A stretch of 57,600 nt of DNA, taken from contig VGHJ01000012.1 of assembly GCA_016868295.1 (NCBI GenBank), positions 1 through 57,600 on the forward strand, in the 5' to 3' direction. Position 1 is the first letter of the stretch; every line of letters starts with the position of its first letter. Position numbers and translations under genes: made by a program. This document shows, piece after piece, positions 4,731 through 52,175 of this stretch. The stretch is from Betaproteobacteria bacterium (GTDB taxonomy: Bacteria > Pseudomonadota > Gammaproteobacteria > Burkholderiales > Rhodocyclaceae). The notes beneath the pieces were generated by a model. The model had not been told where the DNA came from. It saw nothing but the letters and a program-made list of their open reading frames with translations, and searched no databases.

Positions 4731-5927
<1,197 letters not shown>

Positions 5928-5939
5928 GCGGTTTCCTTG

Positions 5940-6131
5940 TTATTTCTTGGCGGCGGCCCAGCCGTCGAAGGCGCGGCGGGCGGCGGACACGGCGGCCTGC
6001 ACGTCGGTGTAGTCGCCTTCGGGGATGCGGCCCATGATCTCCTCGGTGGAGGTGTTGTGAACGTCGATGGTTTTCCTCCGGGATGCGGCCGTCCAGCGGC
6101 CGTCGATATAGAGTTTGTCTCTGATTTGCAT
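5940..6131 (-). pseudogene. Aldehyde dehydrogenase N-terminal remnant (63 codons)
   Basis: The reading frame starts MQIRDKLYIDGRW and runs through EEIMGRIPEGDYTDVQAAV to AFDGWAAAKK, then stops. This matches only the N-terminal strands and first helix of an aldehyde dehydrogenase (normally about 475-500 residues); the Rossmann core, catalytic Cys and Glu are all missing. It occupies the promoter-proximal slot of the operon, 12 nt before the PimC-like start. The simplest reading is an internal deletion that removed the rest of the gene and left the promoter and leader driving the dehydrogenases. A functional short peptide is unlikely but not excluded. Confidence 0.7.
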
Positions 6132-6183
6132 GGTGTCTCTGTGAGGGGTTGTTTACAAACTTCGGATCGAACGATACCATGCT

Positions 6184-6197
6184 TTGAGATAAATCGA
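6184..6197. promoter_or_regulatory. Possible FNR/CRP-type box in the divergent pim-like control region
   Basis: The gap 6132-6253 separates the divergent operons and is much more AT-rich than its surroundings. It contains TTGAG-ATAA-ATCGA, matching 8 of the 10 conserved bases of the FNR consensus TTGAT-N4-ATCAA. An imperfect inverted pair (ATGCT ... AGCAT) spans 6179-6205 around it. FNR-type activators such as AcpR control anaerobic benzoate genes in Azoarcus. The call is a motif match only; a two-mismatch hit is not rare. Confidence 0.3.
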
Positions 6198-6253
6198 AAT
6201 AGCATTCCGCAGAGCGAAACTTTTAGTAAATACCATAGCCAGGACAGTCACTT

Positions 6254-8338
<2,085 letters not shown>

Positions 8339-16498: not shown

Positions 16499-17686
16499 TC
16501 AGTTGCCGAAAGCCGGGATGCCGGTCTGGGCGCGGCCGAGGATGAGGGCGTGGATGTCGTGGGTGCCCTCGTAGGTGTTCACCACCTCCAAGTTCACCAT
16601 GTGGCGGATGACGCCGAACTCGTCGGAGATGCCGTTGCCGCCGAGCATGTCGCGCGCCATGCGTGCCACGTCGAGCGCCTTGCCGCAGGAGTTGCGCTTC
16701 ATGATCGAGGTGATCTCGACCGAGGCGACGCCCTCGTCCTTCATGCGGCCGAGGCGCAGGCAGCCCTGCAGGCCGAGCGTGATCTCGGTCTGCATGTCGG
16801 CGAGCTTCTTCTGGATGAGTTGGTTGGCGGCGAGCGGGCGGCCGAACTGCTTGCGGTCGAGCACGTACTGGCGGGCGCGGAACCAGCAGTCCTCCGCAGC
16901 GCCGAGCGCGCCCCAGGCGATGCCGTAGCGCGCCGAGTTGAGGCAGGTGAACGGGCCCTTGAGGCCCTGCACGCCGGGCATCAGGTTCTCTTCCGGCACG
17001 AACACCTCGTCCATGACGATCTCGCCGGTGATCGAGGCGCGCAGGCCGACCTTGCCGTGGATGGCGGGAGCGGAGAGGCCCTCCCAGCCCTTCTCGAGGA
17101 TGAAGCCGCGGATGATGCCGTCCTCGGTCTTCGCCCAGACGACGAAAACATCGGCGATGGGCGAATTGGAGATCCACATCTTGCTGCCCGAGAGCGCGTA
17201 GCCGCCCTTCACCTGTTTGGCGCGGGTGACCATGCTGCCGGGGTCGGAGCCGTGGTTCGGCTCGGTCAGGCCGAAGCAGCCGATCCACTCGCCGGTGACG
17301 AGCTTCGGCAGGTATTTCTTCTTCTGCGCCTCGGTGCCGAACTCGTTGATCGGCACCATCACCAGCGAGGACTGCACGCTCATCATCGAGCGGTAGCCGG
17401 AGTCGACGCGCTCGACCTCACGCGCGATTAGGCCGTAGCAGACGTAGTTGAGGCCGGCGCCGCCGTACTCGGCGGGGATGGTGGGCCCGAGCAGGCCCAG
17501 CTCGCCCATCTCGCGGAAGATGGCCGGGTCGGTCTTCTCGTTGCGGAAGGCTTCCTGGATGCGCGGGGCGAGCTTGTCCTGGCAATACTGCTGCGCGGTG
17601 TCGCGCACCATGCGCTCTTCCTCGGAGAGCTGCAGGTCGAGGAGGAGGGGGTCGTCCCACTTGAAGGAGGCTTTGGCTTTGGTCAT
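16499..17686 (-). CDS. gcdH: Glutaryl-CoA dehydrogenase
   Basis: A 395-residue enzyme with the strong GCDH signature. It starts with [20 protein letters not shown], and carries [16 protein letters not shown] near residue 137 and [20 protein letters not shown] near 165. Near the C-terminus [20 protein letters not shown] contains the catalytic Glu at about 373. It oxidises and decarboxylates glutaryl-CoA to crotonyl-CoA, passing electrons to ETF. In anaerobic benzoate degradation this step follows pimeloyl-CoA beta-oxidation, so it connects to the pim-like cluster in the same window. It is the last gene of a five-gene minus-strand operon reading from 19503. Confidence 0.95.
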
Positions 17687-44643: not shown

Positions 44644-45534
44644 ATGTCGAACTTCGAGATTGTGACACGGGAGGACTTCTCCGAGGTCACCTATCTGCTC
44701 GAGGTGCGGCATCCGCTGATGGCACGGGCGGCGCGGCCCGGCCAGTTCGTCATCGTCATGCTGCATGAAGCCGGCGAGCGCATCCCCCTGACCATCGCCG
44801 ATTTCGACCGCGAGGCCGGCACCATCACCCTGGTGGTGCAGGCGGTGGGCAAGACCACGCGCGAAATGCAGCAGGCCTGCCGCCGCGGCACCCATTTGCA
44901 TGCGCTGGTCGGCCCGATGGGCGTTCCCAGTACCACGACCCACGCGAAGAAAGTCGTCTGCGTCGGCGGCGGACTGGGCGTGGCGCCCATCTACCCCCAG
45001 GCGCGGGCGCTGAAGGAAAGCGACGCCTACGTCATCGGCGTAATCGGCTTCCGCAACAAGGATCTCGTCTTCTGGGAAGAGAAGTTCAAGGCAATCTGCG
45101 ACGAGCTCATCATCTGCACCGACGATGGCTCGGCCGGCATCAAGGGCCTGGTCACCGAGGGCATCAAGCAGGCGGTCGCCCGCCATTCGGACATCGACGA
45201 AGTCATTGCCATCGGCCCGCCGATCATGATGAAGGGCTGTGCGGACACGACCCGTCCCTTCGGCATCCGGACCATGGTCAGCCTGAATCCCCTCATGGTC
45301 GATGGCACCGGCATGTGCGGCGGCTGCCGCGTGAAAATCGGCGAGGAAGTGAAGTTCGCCTGCGTCGACGGTCCCGATTTCGACGGCCACAAGGTCGATT
45401 TCGACGATCTGATGCGACGGCTGAAACGCTTCACCAAGGAGGAGCGCATGGCGCTGGAGCACTGGGAGAAGGGCTGCCGGCTGCAACAGCAGATCGATGC
45501 GACGGCAGCCTCGCCGGGCGGCGGCAGCGAGTAG
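44644..45534 (+). CDS. NfnA/SudB-like FAD and [2Fe-2S] subunit (ferredoxin-NAD(P) reductase family)
   Basis: A 296-residue protein after GGGGAGAGG. The FAD-binding RIPLTIADFDREAGT is near residue 46, the nucleotide-binding CVGGGLGVAPIYPQARAL near 102, and the cluster site DGTGMCGGCRV followed by FACVDGPDFDGH near 222-245 gives three Cys plus Asp, the ligands of the [2Fe-2S] in NfnA. Length fits. With the next gene it forms a SudBA/NfnAB pair, which in Thermotoga and clostridia couples NADH, NADPH and ferredoxin by electron bifurcation. Such pairs are unusual in betaproteobacteria. Confidence 0.87.
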   Translation: MSNFEIVTREDFSEVTYLLEVRHPLMARAARPGQFVIVMLHEAGERIPLTIADFDREAGTITLVVQAVGKTTREMQQACRRGTHLHALVGPMGVPSTTTHAKKVVCVGGGLGVAPIYPQARALKESDAYVIGVIGFRNKDLVFWEEKFKAICDELIICTDDGSAGIKGLVTEGIKQAVARHSDIDEVIAIGPPIMMKGCADTTRPFGIRTMVSLNPLMVDGTGMCGGCRVKIGEEVKFACVDGPDFDGHKVDFDDLMRRLKRFTKEERMALEHWEKGCRLQQQIDATAASPGGGSE

Positions 45535-45538
45535 CATC

Positions 45539-47047
45539 ATGGCCAAGAAGAAAACCATCCGCACCATCCCGCAGGAACGCACGCCGATGCTCGAGCAGGC
45601 GGCCGCGGCGCGCGCGAAGAATTTCCAGGAAGTCGCCTGCGGCTACCGGCTGGAGGACGCGCTGCGCGAGGCGGAGCGCTGCCTGCTCTGCCCGGACCGG
45701 CCCTGCGTGGCCGGCTGTCCGGTCGGCATCGACATTCCGGGCTTCATCGAGAAAATCGGCCGCAAGGATCTGCGCGCTGCCTACGACACCCTGACCGATA
45801 CGAATCTGCTGCCGGCGGTATGCGGCCGCGTCTGCCCGCAGGAAAACCAGTGCGAGGGCGTGTGCACGGTCGGCGAATCCCTCGAGTCCGTCGCCATCGG
45901 CCGCCTCGAGCGCTTCGTCGGCGACACGGCGATCAAGGAAGGCTGGGCCAACATTCCCTACATCGAGCCGAACCGCTACCGCGTCGGCATCGTCGGCTCG
46001 GGCCCCGCCGGCATGGCCTGCGCGGCGGACATGGCCAAGGCCGGCTGCGACGTCACGGTCTATGAGGCCTTCCATGTGCCCGGCGGCGTGCTGCGCTACG
46101 GCATTCCCGACTTCCGCCTGCCGAACGAGGTGATCGATGCCGAAATCGAGAACCTGAAGAAACTCGGCGTGAAGTTCGAATGCAACACCCTGGTCGGCCG
46201 GCTGTTCACCATCGAGCAGATGATCGGGGAGATGGGCTGCGACGCGGTGTTCGTCGGCGTCGGCGCCGGCTACCCGACCGGCCTGGGCATCCCGGGCGAT
46301 TCCCTCAACGGCGTGCTCTCGGCCAACGAATTGCTCACCCGATGCAACCTGATGCGGGCGAAGGAATTCCCCAACTTCGATACGCCGGTTCCGCTGGGGC
46401 GCCGCGTCGCCGTGGTCGGCGCCGGCAACACCGCCATGGATGCCATGCGGGTGTGCCTGCGGCTGGGCGCCGAGAAGGTGTATTGCATCTACCGCCGCTC
46501 GCGCAAGGAGGCGCCGGCGCGGCTCGAGGAAGTGCATCACGCTGAGGAGGAGGGCATCGAGTTCAACTGGCTGACCAATCCGGTGGCGGTGCTCGACGAC
46601 GGCAGCGGCGGCGTGCGCGGGCTGCGCTGCGTGCGCATGGTGCTGGGCGAGCCGGACGATTCCGGCCGGCGGCGGCCGGTGCCCATCGGCGGCAGTGAAT
46701 TCGATTTCGAATGCGACGTCGTCGTCTACGCAATCGGCACCAACGCCAATCCGATCATGGGCCAGACTTCCAGGCTCAGACTGAACAAGTGGGGCTATAT
46801 CGACACCGACGACGACCTTGCCACTTCGGTGGCCGGCGTGTTCGCCGGCGGCGACATCGTCACCGGAGCGGCGACGGTGATCGAGGCCATGGGCGCCGGC
46901 CGCAAGGCGGCGCGCAGCATGAAGGTCTACCTGGGACTGCGCGATCCGTGCCTGCCCTATCGGGTCGACGCCGATGCCGGAGATCGGCCCTTCGGCATCG
47001 ATCGCCGCGAACGCAATTTCGTGCGCGTGAGGATGGCCGAAACCTGA
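45539..47047 (+). CDS. NfnB/SudA-like flavoprotein with two [4Fe-4S] clusters (GltD-like)
   Basis: A 502-residue protein, 4 nt after the previous stop. Two N-terminal Cys clusters, CLLCPDRPCVAGCPVGIDIP near residue 43 and CGRVCPQENQCEGVC near 93, hold the two [4Fe-4S] centres. The FAD motif VGIVGSGPAGMACAADMAKA is near 150 and the NADP motif RVAVVGAGNTAMDAMRV near 290. GltD-like proteins are often labelled glutamate synthase small subunit, but no gltB is near and the partner is NfnA-like. Bifurcating NADP/NAD/ferredoxin chemistry is inferred from the pair. Confidence 0.87.
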   Translation: MAKKKTIRTIPQERTPMLEQAAAARAKNFQEVACGYRLEDALREAERCLLCPDRPCVAGCPVGIDIPGFIEKIGRKDLRAAYDTLTDTNLLPAVCGRVCPQENQCEGVCTVGESLESVAIGRLERFVGDTAIKEGWANIPYIEPNRYRVGIVGSGPAGMACAADMAKAGCDVTVYEAFHVPGGVLRYGIPDFRLPNEVIDAEIENLKKLGVKFECNTLVGRLFTIEQMIGEMGCDAVFVGVGAGYPTGLGIPGDSLNGVLSANELLTRCNLMRAKEFPNFDTPVPLGRRVAVVGAGNTAMDAMRVCLRLGAEKVYCIYRRSRKEAPARLEEVHHAEEEGIEFNWLTNPVAVLDDGSGGVRGLRCVRMVLGEPDDSGRRRPVPIGGSEFDFECDVVVYAIGTNANPIMGQTSRLRLNKWGYIDTDDDLATSVAGVFAGGDIVTGAATVIEAMGAGRKAARSMKVYLGLRDPCLPYRVDADAGDRPFGIDRRERNFVRVRMAET

Positions 47048-47069
47048 AACGGACCCGACAACCGCCAGC

Positions 47070-48989
47070 ATGGATGCCATGACCCCCGCAGCCCAGCCGA
47101 CGTCCGCCAGACCGGCCGAATCCCGCGCCGACGCAGCGCTCGGCGGCAAGGCCGCCACGACGCTGAAGGAACACATCGTCGAGATCATCAGCGATTCCGG
47201 CGAGGGCGCGCAGCGCTGCGGCCAGTCGCTCGGCTCGATCGCCGCGCGCATGGGCAACGGCATCTGGACCACCGAGATCATCCCCGCCGAGATCCGCCCG
47301 CCGGCGCGCAGCGTTGCCGGCGCCAGCGGCAATCGCATCCGCATCGGCGCCGGGCCGGTGACCAACGGCGGCGACGAGACCGACCTGGTGATCGCCTTCA
47401 ACGAGCAGGTGCTGCTCGGCAGGGTGCGCGGCAACCAGCTCAAGCCCGGCTGCACGATCCTGCTCGAGAGCATGTGGCGTTCCAGCCCGGATGCCAAGGT
47501 CGCCGCCTCCTACATCGACACCCACGACCGGCTGGTCAAGGCCGGCTACCGGGTGTACGAAGTTCCGCTCGAAGCGGAATGCCGCAGGCACGTCTCGGAT
47601 CCGCGCCAGGGCAAGAACATGTTCGCGCTCGGCATGCTGTGCAGCATCTACAGCCTCGACCTGCAGGTGGCGCGCGAGCAGGTCGCGCTCACCTTCGGCA
47701 AGAAGGACCGCGGCGTCATCGAGCAGAACGTCAGGCTGCTGGAGGAGGGCTTCAAGTGGGCCGAAGCCGGCCTCGACTTCAAGTACCGCATTCCGGCGCT
47801 ACGCAACACGCAGCCGCAGATCGTGGTCAACGGCAACACGGCGCTGGCGCTCGGCGCCCTCGCCTCGGGCATGGAAGTCTGCGCCATGTATCCGATCACC
47901 CCGGCCACCTCGGCCTCGCACTACCTGAGCGACGTCTTCGAGAAGGTCGGCGGCGTCGTGCACCAGGCCGAGGACGAGATCGCCGCCTGCGCCTTCGCCA
48001 TCGGCGCCTCGTATGCCGGCAAATGCACCGTCACCATCACTTCCGGGCCGGGCTATTCACTCAAGCAGGAGGCGATCGGGCTGGCCGTCATGGGCGAGAT
48101 TCCCCTCGTCGTGGTGAACGTGCAGCGCGGCGGGCCGAGCACGGGACAGCCGACGAAGGTCGAGCAGGGGGATCTGCTTACCACGCTGTTCGGCAGCCAC
48201 GGCGACGCGCCGAAGGTGGTCATGGCGCCGGCCACCATCGAGGACTGCTTCTACTCGGTGATCACGGCGCGCAAGATCGCCGAGACCTTCAACATGGTCG
48301 TGGTGATCCTCTCCGACGCCGGGCTGGCGACTTCGCAGACGCCTTTCCCTCGTCCGCATTTCCAGGAGTCGTGGCTGGCGCCGCCGATCGACCAGAGCGA
48401 AGTGCCGGAGGGCGCGCTGCCCTACGCGTGGAATCCGTCCACCGGTCTGGCGCGCCGCTTCATACCCGGCCAGCCGGGCGGCATGCACACCGTCACCGGC
48501 CTGGCGCACGACAGCGCCAGCCACGTCGCCTACGATCCGGAAATCAACGAGGCCGGCATCCGCGCGCGCAGCCTGAAGCTCGCCGCGCTGCAGAAGACCC
48601 TGCGGCCGCCCCCGCTGTTCGGCGATGCGGAAGGGGATCTGCTGATCGTCGGCTGGGGCAGCACCAAGGGCACCATCGAGGAGGCGGTCGGCGCGCTGCG
48701 CGAGGAGGGCCACAAGGTCTCCTCGATGCACCTGCAGTTCCTGCAGCCCATGCCGCCGGGCATCAAGGAGGCCATGCAGCGTTTCCGCAAGGTCATGACC
48801 GTCGAGGGCAACTGGTGCGACCGCCCCGAGGACGAGATCATCGACGAAACCAACCGCCGCTATTCGGCGCTCGCCATGCTGCTGCGGGCGCGATACCTGA
48901 TCGACGTCGATTGCTGGAGCGAAGTGAAGGGCCAGCCGATCAAGCCGAGCGTCGTGATCCGCGCCATCCGCGCGCGGCTGCAGCACTGA
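47070..48989 (+). CDS. korA: 2-oxoacid:ferredoxin oxidoreductase, fused gamma-alpha subunit (KorA-like)
   Basis: A 639-residue protein with the gamma domain at residues 35-215 (SGEGAQRCGQSLGSIAARMG) and the alpha domain from 245. The alpha part has the substrate motif MYPITPATSASHYLS near 271 and TSGPGYSLKQEAIGLAVMGE near 323. KorAB oxidises 2-oxoglutarate to succinyl-CoA with reduction of ferredoxin. In Thauera and Azoarcus this enzyme provides ferredoxin for benzoyl-CoA reductase. Substrate choice (2-oxoglutarate over pyruvate or branched 2-oxoacids) is inferred from the gamma-alpha fusion and context. Confidence 0.92.
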   Translation: MDAMTPAAQPTSARPAESRADAALGGKAATTLKEHIVEIISDSGEGAQRCGQSLGSIAARMGNGIWTTEIIPAEIRPPARSVAGASGNRIRIGAGPVTNGGDETDLVIAFNEQVLLGRVRGNQLKPGCTILLESMWRSSPDAKVAASYIDTHDRLVKAGYRVYEVPLEAECRRHVSDPRQGKNMFALGMLCSIYSLDLQVAREQVALTFGKKDRGVIEQNVRLLEEGFKWAEAGLDFKYRIPALRNTQPQIVVNGNTALALGALASGMEVCAMYPITPATSASHYLSDVFEKVGGVVHQAEDEIAACAFAIGASYAGKCTVTITSGPGYSLKQEAIGLAVMGEIPLVVVNVQRGGPSTGQPTKVEQGDLLTTLFGSHGDAPKVVMAPATIEDCFYSVITARKIAETFNMVVVILSDAGLATSQTPFPRPHFQESWLAPPIDQSEVPEGALPYAWNPSTGLARRFIPGQPGGMHTVTGLAHDSASHVAYDPEINEAGIRARSLKLAALQKTLRPPPLFGDAEGDLLIVGWGSTKGTIEEAVGALREEGHKVSSMHLQFLQPMPPGIKEAMQRFRKVMTVEGNWCDRPEDEIIDETNRRYSALAMLLRARYLIDVDCWSEVKGQPIKPSVVIRAIRARLQH

Positions 48990-49007
48990 GAAGAGGAGCC
49001 AGCCAAC

Positions 49008-49994
49008 ATGAACATGGCCGCCACCGAATGCCTCCTGCAGTTGTATGAGGAGCGTCTCCAACTCGAGGACTACCAGAGCGGGGTGCCGCGCTGGTGCTCG
49101 GGCTGCGGCGACAATGCCATCCTGGCCGCCGTCCAGCGGCTGTGCCGCGACGAGGGCCTGCGCCCGGAACAGACGGTGTTCGTCTCCGGCATCGGCTGCT
49201 CGAGCCGCTTCCCGCATTACATGAAGACTTACGGCTTCCACGGCATCCACGGCCGCGCCCTGCCCATCGCCGAGGGCGTCAAGATGGCGCGTCCGGATCT
49301 GACCGTGTTCGTCAACACCGGCGACGGCGATTGCTGCAGCATCGGTGCGGCGCACTGGATCCACGCGCTGCGCTACAACATGAACATCACGCTGTTCCTG
49401 CACGACAACCAGATCTACGGCCTGACCAAGAAGCAGGTCTCGCCGACCTCGCCGATCGGCACCCGGAGCAACACCACGCCGCGCGGCGCCTATCTGGAGG
49501 CGCTGAATCCGCTCACCGTCACCCTCGGGGTGCAGAACGTCTCCTTCGTTGCCCAGGCCGTGGACTGGATTCCCGAGCTGCTCTACGACATCGTCAAGGC
49601 CGCCTACCACCACAAGGGACTGTCGTTCGTGCGCATCGTCCAGCGCTGCCCCGAGTGGCTGCCCAAGCTGATGGATCCGTGGATGCACGATCCGCAGAAG
49701 GTGCAGCTGGTGCACCACGAGCGGGCGCTCAGGATCAGTCCGGCCATCGCCAAGGTCTACAAGAACCACGTCGAACACGATCCGCTCAACATGGACCGGG
49801 CGCGCGAGATCGCTTCGAGTACGGATGTCGTTCCGGTCGGCATCCTGTACCAGAACCCGTGCGTTCCCTGCTACGAGGACATCCGCCGTTCAGGCGGACT
49901 GCGCAGCGCGGACTATGTGCGCCGTGGGCTGGAGGGCGAGTTCGACAAGTTCACGGTTTGGCCCGAAGGCGCGGGCGAGCAGCAGGCGGCTTGA
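49008..49994 (+). CDS. korB: 2-oxoacid:ferredoxin oxidoreductase beta subunit (KorB-like)
   Basis: A 328-residue thiamine-diphosphate subunit. RWCSGCGDNAIL near residue 28 and GIGCSSRFP near 63 give cluster Cys; GDGDCCSIGAAHWIHALRYN with the downstream NQIYGLTKKQVSPTSP is the ThDP-binding region near 105-150; a further CVPCYED near 286 supplies Cys. It carries the catalytic cofactor and one [4Fe-4S]. GAAGAGGAG precedes the ATG. Confidence 0.93.
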   Translation: MNMAATECLLQLYEERLQLEDYQSGVPRWCSGCGDNAILAAVQRLCRDEGLRPEQTVFVSGIGCSSRFPHYMKTYGFHGIHGRALPIAEGVKMARPDLTVFVNTGDGDCCSIGAAHWIHALRYNMNITLFLHDNQIYGLTKKQVSPTSPIGTRSNTTPRGAYLEALNPLTVTLGVQNVSFVAQAVDWIPELLYDIVKAAYHHKGLSFVRIVQRCPEWLPKLMDPWMHDPQKVQLVHHERALRISPAIAKVYKNHVEHDPLNMDRAREIASSTDVVPVGILYQNPCVPCYEDIRRSGGLRSADYVRRGLEGEFDKFTVWPEGAGEQQAA

Positions 49995-50012
49995 TCACGA
50001 CCTGACGTTGCC

Positions 50013-52175
50013 ATGGAATCCGATCTGCAAACGCATGTCACCTTCTATCTCACCGGCAAGCGGCACGGTGGGCAGCTCGGTCCCATTGACGGCATGGCGC
50101 TGCGGCCCGCGTTGCTCGCCGGCTACCGCGACCTGACCCGGCTGCGCTACGACTATCCGGTCGTCCTGTGTGCCCAAGACGGGGATGGCGCGTCCGTGCG
50201 GCCCCTGTCGGGTCTCGTCGACGCCGCGCTTGGACAGGCAGGCGGGGGGCAGGACGGCGAGCGGGTCCGCAGGCATGTCCTGCACCTTGAGGAAGACATC
50301 CGCAAGTTGCTCGCCGAGGGCGCCGAAGGAACGCTTTCCGCGTTGTGGGACAAGGCGGCCGGTGCGCAGGCCGGGCAGGGCCTGGGCCGCGTGCGCGCCG
50401 CGATCAAGGCCGACGGCGAGCTCGCCGATTGCGACCGGCGCCTGCCGGCGCGCCTGGTCGGCCACGCCTGGAACGCGGTGCAGCAGCGCAAGTCGCGGCG
50501 CTTCGCCGAGGACATCACCCGCCTCATCCACAAGCTCAACGACATCCTCGTTGCGGACTTCGTCCGTTCCGACGCCGGCAAGAGCGTGGATGTGCTCAAG
50601 TCCGGCATCGGCACGTCGCATCAGGACAGTTTCGATTTCGATGCCATGTCGCGCATCCTGAGGGATTCGGTGCACGAGGTCGCGCTGCCCGCTTCCCGTC
50701 GCCGACGCGTCACGCAGCTGCTCTCCGTGCTCGAATCCCAGCGCTTTTGCGCGCGCACGGACCTCCCGGCTGGCGACGAGGCAGACGAACCGTATGCCTT
50801 TGCCTTCGGCAGCTGCGATGCGGCGCTGAGGGCGTACCGGGAGCGCCTGCCCAAGGCGATCGAGCTGCTCAAGGCCATCTCCATGGCCGAGCTCGAGATC
50901 CGCAGCGAATATCACGAAGCCAAGCACGATCCGATATTCGAGGGCTTCGGCGAGATCGGCTTCGACCCGCGCGACCTGTCCCGCTTCCCCGATTATCTCG
51001 TCTGCGCGAACGCCAGCCGCATGCGCGGGGTGGAGAACGATCGCCTGGCCGAAATTTTTTCAGGCGGCCTGCCGATGAAGGTACTCGTCCAGACGGACGA
51101 CCTGCTCGAGGAATCCCCGCTCGGCAAGGGGCACCTGGCCATCGGCCTGCGTGCCAAGCAGCTCGCCAGCATGGCGATCGGGCTGAGCCGGGTCTTCGTC
51201 CTGCAGTGCCCGAGTTCGCATCTCGTGCAGTGGAGCGGGCATCTCACGCAGGGGCTGCTGTACAGCGGCCCGGCGCTGTTCAGCGTATTCTCGGGCGCGC
51301 CGGAGAAGGCCGGCACGCTGCCCGCCTACCTGAACGCGGCGGCGGCCCTGGAGGCGCGCGTGTTCCCGGCCTACGTGTACGATCCCTCGGCCGGATCCGA
51401 CTGGGCAGCGCGTTTCCATCTCGGCGAGAATCCGCAGGCGGAGCGTGACTGGCCGATGCGGGAATTCGCCTACGAGGACAGCAACCACCAGCGCATGGCG
51501 GAGAGCCTCGAATTCACCCTGGTCGACTTCATCGTCTGCGATCCGCGCTTTGCCGACCATTTCGCGCGCGTGCCGCCGGCGCACTGGAACGGCAGCCTGG
51601 TGCCGGTGGCCGAGGCGCTGGCGCACGAACCCGTCGGTCTGCCGACCCAGGTGCCCTGCCTGACGATGGTGGATGAGAGCAATGCGCTGCAGAAAGTCAT
51701 CGTGGACGAGAACCTCATCCGCGAGGCGCGCACCTGCCGCGACATGTGGTACAGCCTGCGCGAACTCGGCGGCATCCGCAACTCCCATGCCGAGCGGCTG
51801 CTGGCGCGCGAGAAGCAGGCTTGGGAGCGGGTCCGGAAACAGGAAAGCGCCGCGCCTGCCGTAGTGGCGGCGCCGGTCGCGGAAGCGCGGCCTGAGCCGC
51901 CGGTCGAAAGCGAGCCGGAACGTTCGCCCGACGAGGCCTACATCGAGACGGCGCGCTGTTCCACCTGCAACGAATGCACGACGCTCAATCCGAAGATGTT
52001 CAAGTACGACGCCAACATGCAGGCCTATATCGCCGACATCGATGCGGGCACCTACGCCCAACTGGTCGAGGCCGCGGAGAACTGCCAGGTGTCGGTCATC
52101 CATCCTGGCAAGCCGCGCAATCCCAAGGAGCCCGGCCTGGAGGAACTGCAGAAGCGGGCCGAGGCGTTTCTCTGA
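50013..52175 (+). CDS. Large uncharacterised protein with a C-terminal one-cluster ferredoxin domain
   Basis: A 720-residue protein starting MESDLQTHVTFYLTGKRHGG, 18 nt after korB. Residues 1-300 are mostly helical with no recognised motif. Residues about 345-510 (KVLVQTDDLLEESPLGKGHL; VFPAYVYDPSAGSDW) faintly recall the later domains of pyruvate:ferredoxin oxidoreductase. A flexible Ala/Pro/Glu linker is near 610-640. The end is a ferredoxin-like domain with Cys649, Cys652, Cys655 and Cys691 (CSTCNEC ... ENCQVSVIHP). It probably docks on KorAB as electron acceptor, or brings another partner. The function of the main body is unknown. No signal peptide or membrane segment. Confidence 0.85.
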   Translation: MESDLQTHVTFYLTGKRHGGQLGPIDGMALRPALLAGYRDLTRLRYDYPVVLCAQDGDGASVRPLSGLVDAALGQAGGGQDGERVRRHVLHLEEDIRKLLAEGAEGTLSALWDKAAGAQAGQGLGRVRAAIKADGELADCDRRLPARLVGHAWNAVQQRKSRRFAEDITRLIHKLNDILVADFVRSDAGKSVDVLKSGIGTSHQDSFDFDAMSRILRDSVHEVALPASRRRRVTQLLSVLESQRFCARTDLPAGDEADEPYAFAFGSCDAALRAYRERLPKAIELLKAISMAELEIRSEYHEAKHDPIFEGFGEIGFDPRDLSRFPDYLVCANASRMRGVENDRLAEIFSGGLPMKVLVQTDDLLEESPLGKGHLAIGLRAKQLASMAIGLSRVFVLQCPSSHLVQWSGHLTQGLLYSGPALFSVFSGAPEKAGTLPAYLNAAAALEARVFPAYVYDPSAGSDWAARFHLGENPQAERDWPMREFAYEDSNHQRMAESLEFTLVDFIVCDPRFADHFARVPPAHWNGSLVPVAEALAHEPVGLPTQVPCLTMVDESNALQKVIVDENLIREARTCRDMWYSLRELGGIRNSHAERLLAREKQAWERVRKQESAAPAVVAAPVAEARPEPPVESEPERSPDEAYIETARCSTCNECTTLNPKMFKYDANMQAYIADIDAGTYAQLVEAAENCQVSVIHPGKPRNPKEPGLEELQKRAEAFL

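Follow-up and report, generated by a model that had tools for sequence, protein, structure and literature searches.

A conserved five-gene operon of Betaproteobacteria that combines NfnAB- and KorAB-type enzymes with a PFOR-like partner protein

The source of low-potential ferredoxin for aromatic ring reduction varies among bacteria. Thauera relies on KorAB for it, and R. palustris on an enzyme of the Nfn type (PMC9973337; papers are cited here by PMC number). The R. palustris enzyme, AadN, is a fused Nfn protein required for growth on benzoate, and among the 10 strains in Table 4 of that report seven have aadN only, two have korAB only, one has neither and none has both (PMC9973337). We analyzed a 57,600-nucleotide stretch of DNA, termed the window, from a host labeled Betaproteobacteria bacterium (assembly GCA_016868295.1, contig VGHJ01000012.1). 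Here both kinds of ferredoxin source are locked in one conserved operon, NfnA-NfnB-KorA-KorB-P5, together with an unnamed, pyruvate:ferredoxin oxidoreductase (PFOR)-derived partner that we call P5, in genomes that also have 2-oxoglutarate dehydrogenase (OGDH). Because both kinds share one operon, the question of the ferredoxin source becomes testable through one gene block.

As the preliminary description of the window had proposed, the five genes lie in this order on one strand (Table 1), and the gaps of 4, 22 and 18 bases that it gave are followed by a further gap of 18. That description considered the set unusual in a betaproteobacterium. However, the same arrangement recurs in many species. 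A scan for P5 relatives, with one genome per species, yielded 451 relatives, of which the best 80 were kept as named loci. All five genes are complete and ordered in 54 of these. In the remaining 26, which are cut at the ends of their stretches, the first gene match starts no more than 340 bases from the stretch end. Thus, none of the 80 named loci contradicts the five-gene order. According to record labels, which are mostly those of metagenomes, 63 of the 80 loci are betaproteobacterial (labels include Propionivibrio, Rhodoferax, Ramlibacter, Sulfuritalea, Sterolibacterium and Accumulibacter), and 17 belong to other groups or carry no label.

So as not to condition on P5 alone, an NfnB search was made in 399 sampled genomes of the host's order, with three candidates scored per genome. 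A close NfnB (at least 72% identity) and a close P5 occur in exactly the same 12 genomes. This coincidence and the 80 named loci rule out a chance arrangement. Two module genomes, G378 and G761, have the module split over two contigs each, with the genes at contig ends. Because the host is the only one among 13 sampled genomes of its own family to have the module, the module is accessory. For comparisons of whole genomes, 54 module genomes were drawn from 41 of the complete named loci, whose genomes carry no completeness figures, and 13 further genomes from the sampled sets. Thirteen complete named loci were left unused, two of which (L137 and L174) look like repeats of genomes already counted. 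One genome with Kor and P5 genes and no Nfn (G332) was included in the reductase searches described below and excluded from the 54.

The conserved unit is limited to these five genes, because no flanking gene family is common to more than 10 loci (open reading frames of at least 90 codons within 5 kb of the module, downstream in 56 loci and upstream in 51). A larger gene cluster was therefore rejected, the commonest flanking family being present in only 10 loci. Downstream of the module, an RnfB-like gene family occurs in six loci (for example, L111:8489-9154), and a family of GltD-like proteins with a Fer4 dicluster occurs in nine (for example, L141:12363-14288). No published description of the five-gene set was found in the open-licence literature that was searched, and nfnAB and korAB are named together in published work. 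As far as these searches reach, the kinds of parts are known, and their fixed combination and P5 are undescribed. The initial observation thus holds, in a stronger form than first stated; the fifth protein and the role of the module need re-reading.

Table 1. Predicted genes and protein regions of the module, in window coordinates
Feature	Coordinates	Strand	Domain or family match
NfnA / NfnS-like small subunit, 296 amino acids (aa); FAD/NAD domain, [2Fe-2S] site (D220, C225, C228, C240)	44644..45534	+	DHODB_Fe-S_bind/PRK06222
NfnB / NfnL-like large subunit, 502 aa; two [4Fe-4S] sites, L-FAD site of the bifurcating type, NADP(H) domain	45539..47047	+	Fer4_20 + Pyr_redox_2
KorA, 639 aa; 2-oxoacid:ferredoxin oxidoreductase subunit with gamma and alpha fused, YPITP	47070..48989	+	POR + POR_N
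KorB, 328 aa; catalytic thiamine-diphosphate subunit, one [4Fe-4S] site	49008..49994	+	TPP_enzyme_C + PFO_beta_C
P5, 720 aa; degenerate C-terminal PFOR half and one C-terminal [4Fe-4S] domain	50013..52175	+	
P5, ~residues 316-432; region like PFOR domain VI, lacking the thiamine diphosphate (TPP)/Mg motif	50958..51308	+	
P5, residues 645-697; single [4Fe-4S] domain, C649, C652, C655, C691	51945..52103	+	Fer4_13 (Pfam)

The first two proteins resemble NfnI of P. furiosus and NfnAB of T. maritima (TmNfnAB) over nearly their full length, which bears out the identity first assigned to them. The nearest PDB chain to NfnA is 5JCA_S of NfnI (E = 1.9e-95), followed by 4YLF_A, and those nearest to NfnB are 4YLF_B (E = 5.6e-167) and 5JCA_L (E = 1.5e-145). 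In bifurcating Nfn enzymes, a Glu ligand of the proximal cluster (E126) and an Arg at the L-FAD (R201) have been described, and a further Arg (R333) is highly conserved in bifurcating enzymes only (PMC9503767, PMC12921514). Among the cluster ligands, an Asp or Glu takes the place of a Cys (PMC9503767). Hand mapping on the alignment with 5JCA_L places E124, R193 and R328 of NfnB at the positions of P. furiosus E126, R201 and R333. Invariance was counted over sequences free of stops that cover at least 85% of the gene. By this measure, the three residues and eight Cys of NfnB are invariant in all 55 sequences, and C225, C228 and C240 of NfnA, together with D220, which we take to be the Asp ligand, are invariant in all 54.

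Thus, every residue linked to bifurcation that was tested is retained in the alignments, and the homology, the cluster ligands and the Arg residues at the L-FAD all correspond to the bifurcating type with separate subunits (pattern A). NfnAB is therefore a probable electron-bifurcating enzyme of the NfnI/TmNfnAB kind. Unlike either of those pairs, it is betaproteobacterial, and its genes share an operon with those for KorAB and P5. The host encodes further Nfn-like proteins, and in the two examined, a GltD-like protein on contig C33 and a BzdV-like protein on contig C5, Lys replaces the Glu. The second Arg is Thr in the GltD-like protein; the BzdV-like protein keeps both Arg residues, and its second Arg thus fails to separate it from NfnB, a point against the reading proposed below. 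Only the Glu distinguishes NfnB from both.

KorA and KorB have the architecture of a two-subunit 2-oxoacid:ferredoxin oxidoreductase, as which KorAB is classified by sequence. Like the enzymes of Magnetococcus and Hydrogenobacter, and that of Thauera as reported in PMC9973337, the pair consists of a fused gamma-alpha subunit with YPITP and a beta subunit with GDG...N and the four Cys of one [4Fe-4S] cluster. In contrast to those enzymes, KorAB is accompanied by P5. KorA exceeds the cut-off of TIGR03710, its best PDB chain is 6N2N_A, the Magnetococcus 2-oxoglutarate:ferredoxin oxidoreductase (E = 9e-77), and its five motif residues are invariant in 62 of 62 sequences. KorB falls slightly under the cut-off of TIGR02177 (237.9 of 261.9 bits); its GDG, N134, four Cys and R67 are invariant in 67 of 67 sequences.

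The substrate of KorAB is likely to be 2-oxoglutarate, which the closeness of KorA to the Magnetococcus enzyme favors. Alignment also shows Leu in KorA at the position of Asp468a of the Sulfolobus enzyme, and the 2-oxoglutarate-specific Hydrogenobacter enzyme also has Leu there (PMC5020499). Several points weigh against this assignment, which rests on similarity. The best PDB chains for KorB are 5B48_B, 5B46_B and 6N2N_B, so ranked that KorB is marginally nearer to the broad-range Sulfolobus enzymes (StOFOR) than to the Magnetococcus enzyme. KorB also has Arg at the Lys49b position, and the K49R change in the Sulfolobus enzyme favored pyruvate (PMC5020499). The Magnetococcus enzyme likewise has Arg at this position.

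The fifth protein had been called a ferredoxin-bearing giant. The ferredoxin domain is present near its C terminus, as Fer4_13, the sole Pfam or NCBIfam match; the remainder of its 720 amino acids is derived from PFOR. In a class-wide search, P5 distantly matches the C-terminal part of PFOR giants of ~1650 amino acids, one of which is encoded by the host (contig C13). Residues 133-719 of P5 align to 1012-1644 of the host giant with 24% identity, and residues 10-118 align to 758-879. The host giant itself (~1644 amino acids; L050:9359-14293) retains a TPP motif, ends in a Fer4_13 domain and lies beside an rnfC gene (host contig C13:43947-45260). An AlphaFold2 model of P5, built from a 56-sequence alignment, has a mean pLDDT of 84.8 and a pTM of 0.75, and the first Foldseek matches to the model are PFORs (E = 2e-5, probability 1.00). 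These superpositions are of low quality (TM ~0.2, rmsd ~9-12), a point against the reading of the module proposed below.

P5 aligns along the C-terminal half of the giants, Fer4_13 tail included. Unlike them, it has no alpha and gamma domains, and two hallmarks of PFOR, the TPP/Mg motif GDG...N and the domain V dicluster Cys, are missing. Where the giant has GDG...DTQVYSNTGGQ, P5 has NAS...TDDLLEES, and none of 79 P5 sequences has GDG within three columns of the TPP position. The GDG strings found in 13 of the 79 were rejected as TPP motifs, as they are not at that position. All eight dicluster Cys are absent from eight P5 sequences that were aligned with seven giants, all of which keep them. 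In the same alignment, P5 lacks one further Cys of the giants, which we take to be a ligand of the proximal cluster. The four tail Cys (C649, C652, C655 and C691), in contrast, are invariant in 79 of 79 sequences. On sequence and model evidence, P5 is best described as a degenerate C-terminal half of PFOR that has lost the thiamine-diphosphate motif and kept one [4Fe-4S] tail. As such, it is an example of half of a thiamine enzyme kept after loss of the catalytic site. A gene described as "PFOR-like" in the Riftia symbiont may be comparable (PMC11636981).

Eleven of the 12 non-giant relatives of P5 in the class were retrieved. One of these is a five-gene locus, that of G213, whose P5 relative has three tandem Fer4_13-like tails with Ala/Pro-rich linkers between them (L039:10308-13070). 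In the 10 others (L040-L049), P5 follows KorA-KorB, and no Nfn gene was found within the stretches examined. P5 is thus a Kor partner first of all. Its mean identity to the window protein is 55%, versus 75-81% for the four enzymes; such faster divergence is as expected for a non-catalytic subunit. In three of these loci (L041, L042 and L045), the KorA-KorB-P5 operon additionally encodes a PFOR-like giant (1537-1575 amino acids by frame length) that has no GDG at the TPP site and retains the dicluster Cys.

We rate as about even the chances that the five genes constitute one redox unit, with KorAB, P5 as relay and NfnAB acting as an exchanger among 2-oxoglutarate, ferredoxin, NADH and NADPH. 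KorAB would convert 2-oxoglutarate into succinyl-CoA and yield low-potential electrons. P5 would be a non-catalytic subunit working with KorAB, and its [4Fe-4S] tail would hand electrons on, both to ferredoxin in solution and, probably, to NfnAB. The latter would interconvert reduced ferredoxin plus NADH and NADPH in either direction. In organisms that have a class-I benzoyl-CoA reductase, the unit would feed ferredoxin to ring reduction and pass the surplus to NADPH. One benzoyl-CoA gives three acetyl-CoA and hence three 2-oxoglutarate oxidations, and the ring needs one electron pair. Most likely, then, the module is a general exchanger of ferredoxin, NADPH and NADH, with the supply of ring reduction as one use. 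It is possible, if doubtful, that all five proteins are physically joined in a single complex, a bifurcation engine fueled by 2-oxoglutarate in which the dead PFOR half is a wire from KorAB to NfnAB. Such a complex would couple carbon oxidation, ferredoxin, NADH and NADPH without free ferredoxin, and it would be a common, unrecognized redox device of facultatively anaerobic betaproteobacteria.

Other electron sources and sinks of the module genomes bear on this exchanger. OGDH E1 was matched in 53 of the 54 (51 over the cut-off, the host included), versus 22 of 26 controls. Because of this, KorAB adds to the aerobic enzyme, and its use as a substitute for missing OGDH was rejected. Nitrogenase was rejected as a common sink: of the 54 module genomes, 6 have nifH over the cut-off and one more, G803, has it truncated, and 2 of the 26 controls have it, which is no difference by Fisher's test (p = 1.0). 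The host, which has 11 POR domains, has two rnfC genes, one adjoining the giant PFOR gene; given these, NfnAB may not be the sole outlet for ferredoxin, which tells against the proposed unit.

A narrower role, in which Nfn is confurcating only and KorAB with NfnAB is a 2-oxoglutarate-dependent source of NADPH, is rather unlikely. It would suit the 23 of 54 module genomes in which both class-I reductase and nifH are missing at the cut-offs used, these being the only sinks searched (G636, discussed below, is counted as having a reductase; the number is 22 if nifH of G803 is counted). However, a GltD-like-KorA-KorB gene set on host contig C33 (L055:7513-13165) could serve this purpose without bifurcation. 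The KorABC enzyme of Azoarcus evansii is a 2-oxoglutarate:NADP+ oxidoreductase, and the module would resemble it in coupling 2-oxoglutarate oxidation to NADP+. By domains, the closer counterpart of KorABC may be the C33 set, which is perhaps a KorABC-type 2-oxoglutarate:NADP+ enzyme; in contrast to NfnB of the window, its GltD-like protein has neither the Glu ligand nor the second Arg.

We attach a similarly low likelihood to the idea that P5 is a subunit for the assembly or oxygen shielding of KorAB in facultative aerobes, rather than an electron relay. P5 stays with the module despite the loss of its thiamine-diphosphate and dicluster sites, and module genomes are aerobe-capable judging by OGDH. 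Protective C-terminal domains are known in PFOR. However, the invariance of the four cluster Cys and the tripled tail of G213 point to electron transfer.

The preliminary description had also linked the module to aromatic ring reduction, and comparison of order genomes with and without a reductase shows that the two are associated. Among the 399 sampled genomes, 6 of the 12 with the module have a class-I reductase, scored as bzdN or bcrC above the cut-off, versus 7 of 387 others, where the bcrC model was run on just the 12 genomes matching the bzdN model at 1e-10. The enrichment (Fisher p = 2.7e-7; with a truncated match in G636 counted, 7 of 12 and p = 8.3e-9) carries no phylogenetic correction, and one family provides four of the seven module genomes with a reductase. 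The host is itself such a genome: on contig C5, BzdN, BzdO and BzdQ exceed the cut-offs and a fourth subunit is P by position (L061:7807-16957). The same cluster has genes for a hydratase-like protein, a 6-hydroxycyclohexene-carbonyl-CoA dehydrogenase and the BzdV-like protein mentioned above. A subunit of phenylglyoxylate dehydrogenase is encoded on host contig C8.

These data would fit a dedicated supply, in which KorAB and NfnAB exist to reduce ferredoxin for benzoyl-CoA reductase, and AadN offers a precedent (PMC9973337). Like AadN, NfnAB is a proteobacterial Nfn-type enzyme that occurs with benzoyl-CoA reductase, and its cofactor residues are conserved as in P. furiosus NfnI. Unlike AadN, which has the fused layout (pattern B), the module has separate subunits in one operon with KorAB, and no reductase genes adjoin it in the stretches searched.

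We nevertheless consider a dedicated supply unlikely, and the supply of ferredoxin for ring reduction is retained only as one use of the exchanger. Among the 54 module genomes, a class-I reductase is present in 25 (6 bzd and a further 19 bcr, one of these, in G780, with one internal stop) or 26 with G636, whose truncated bcrC is under the cut-off. The other 28 have none over the cut-off, although weaker relatives of the reductase family occur in four of them (G783, G784, G789 and G798). The flanks of the 80 named loci contain no relatives of BzdNOPQ at E = 1e-10, nor any shared family above the 10 loci already noted. In the host, the reductase cluster and the module are on separate contigs, and the cluster has the BzdV-like protein beside it. 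Finally, seven genomes of the order sample have the reductase and no module, so that the module is not found with, and only with, a class-I reductase. The link between module and ring reduction is therefore strong and not exclusive: the species that carry the five-gene unit are often, but not always, ones that degrade aromatic rings anaerobically.

Two of the seven genomes, G449 and G682, have a fused Nfn homologue of AadN-like layout (frames of 843 and 817 amino acids; 56% and 55% identity). Fused AadN-like Nfn homologues occur more widely in the host's order (G449:C45:62992-64380 and G682:C2:651631-653061; also G687, G694, G752 and G761), with frames of 803-861 amino acids and 55-57% identity.

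We consider it very unlikely that the module runs in reverse, with NfnAB making reduced ferredoxin from NADPH and KorAB carboxylating succinyl-CoA as an assimilatory 2-oxoglutarate synthase. In favor of this reading, Nfn and Kor enzymes are reversible in principle, and other families of the class have relatives of KorAB-P5 that lack Nfn. Against it, OGDH is matched in 53 of 54 module holders.

A plasmid search gave two matches, both distant, and the draft genome of the host yielded no 16S rRNA gene. In addition to the module, the window contains acyl-CoA dehydrogenase and hydratase/3-hydroxyacyl-CoA dehydrogenase genes (4731-8338 and 16502-17686).

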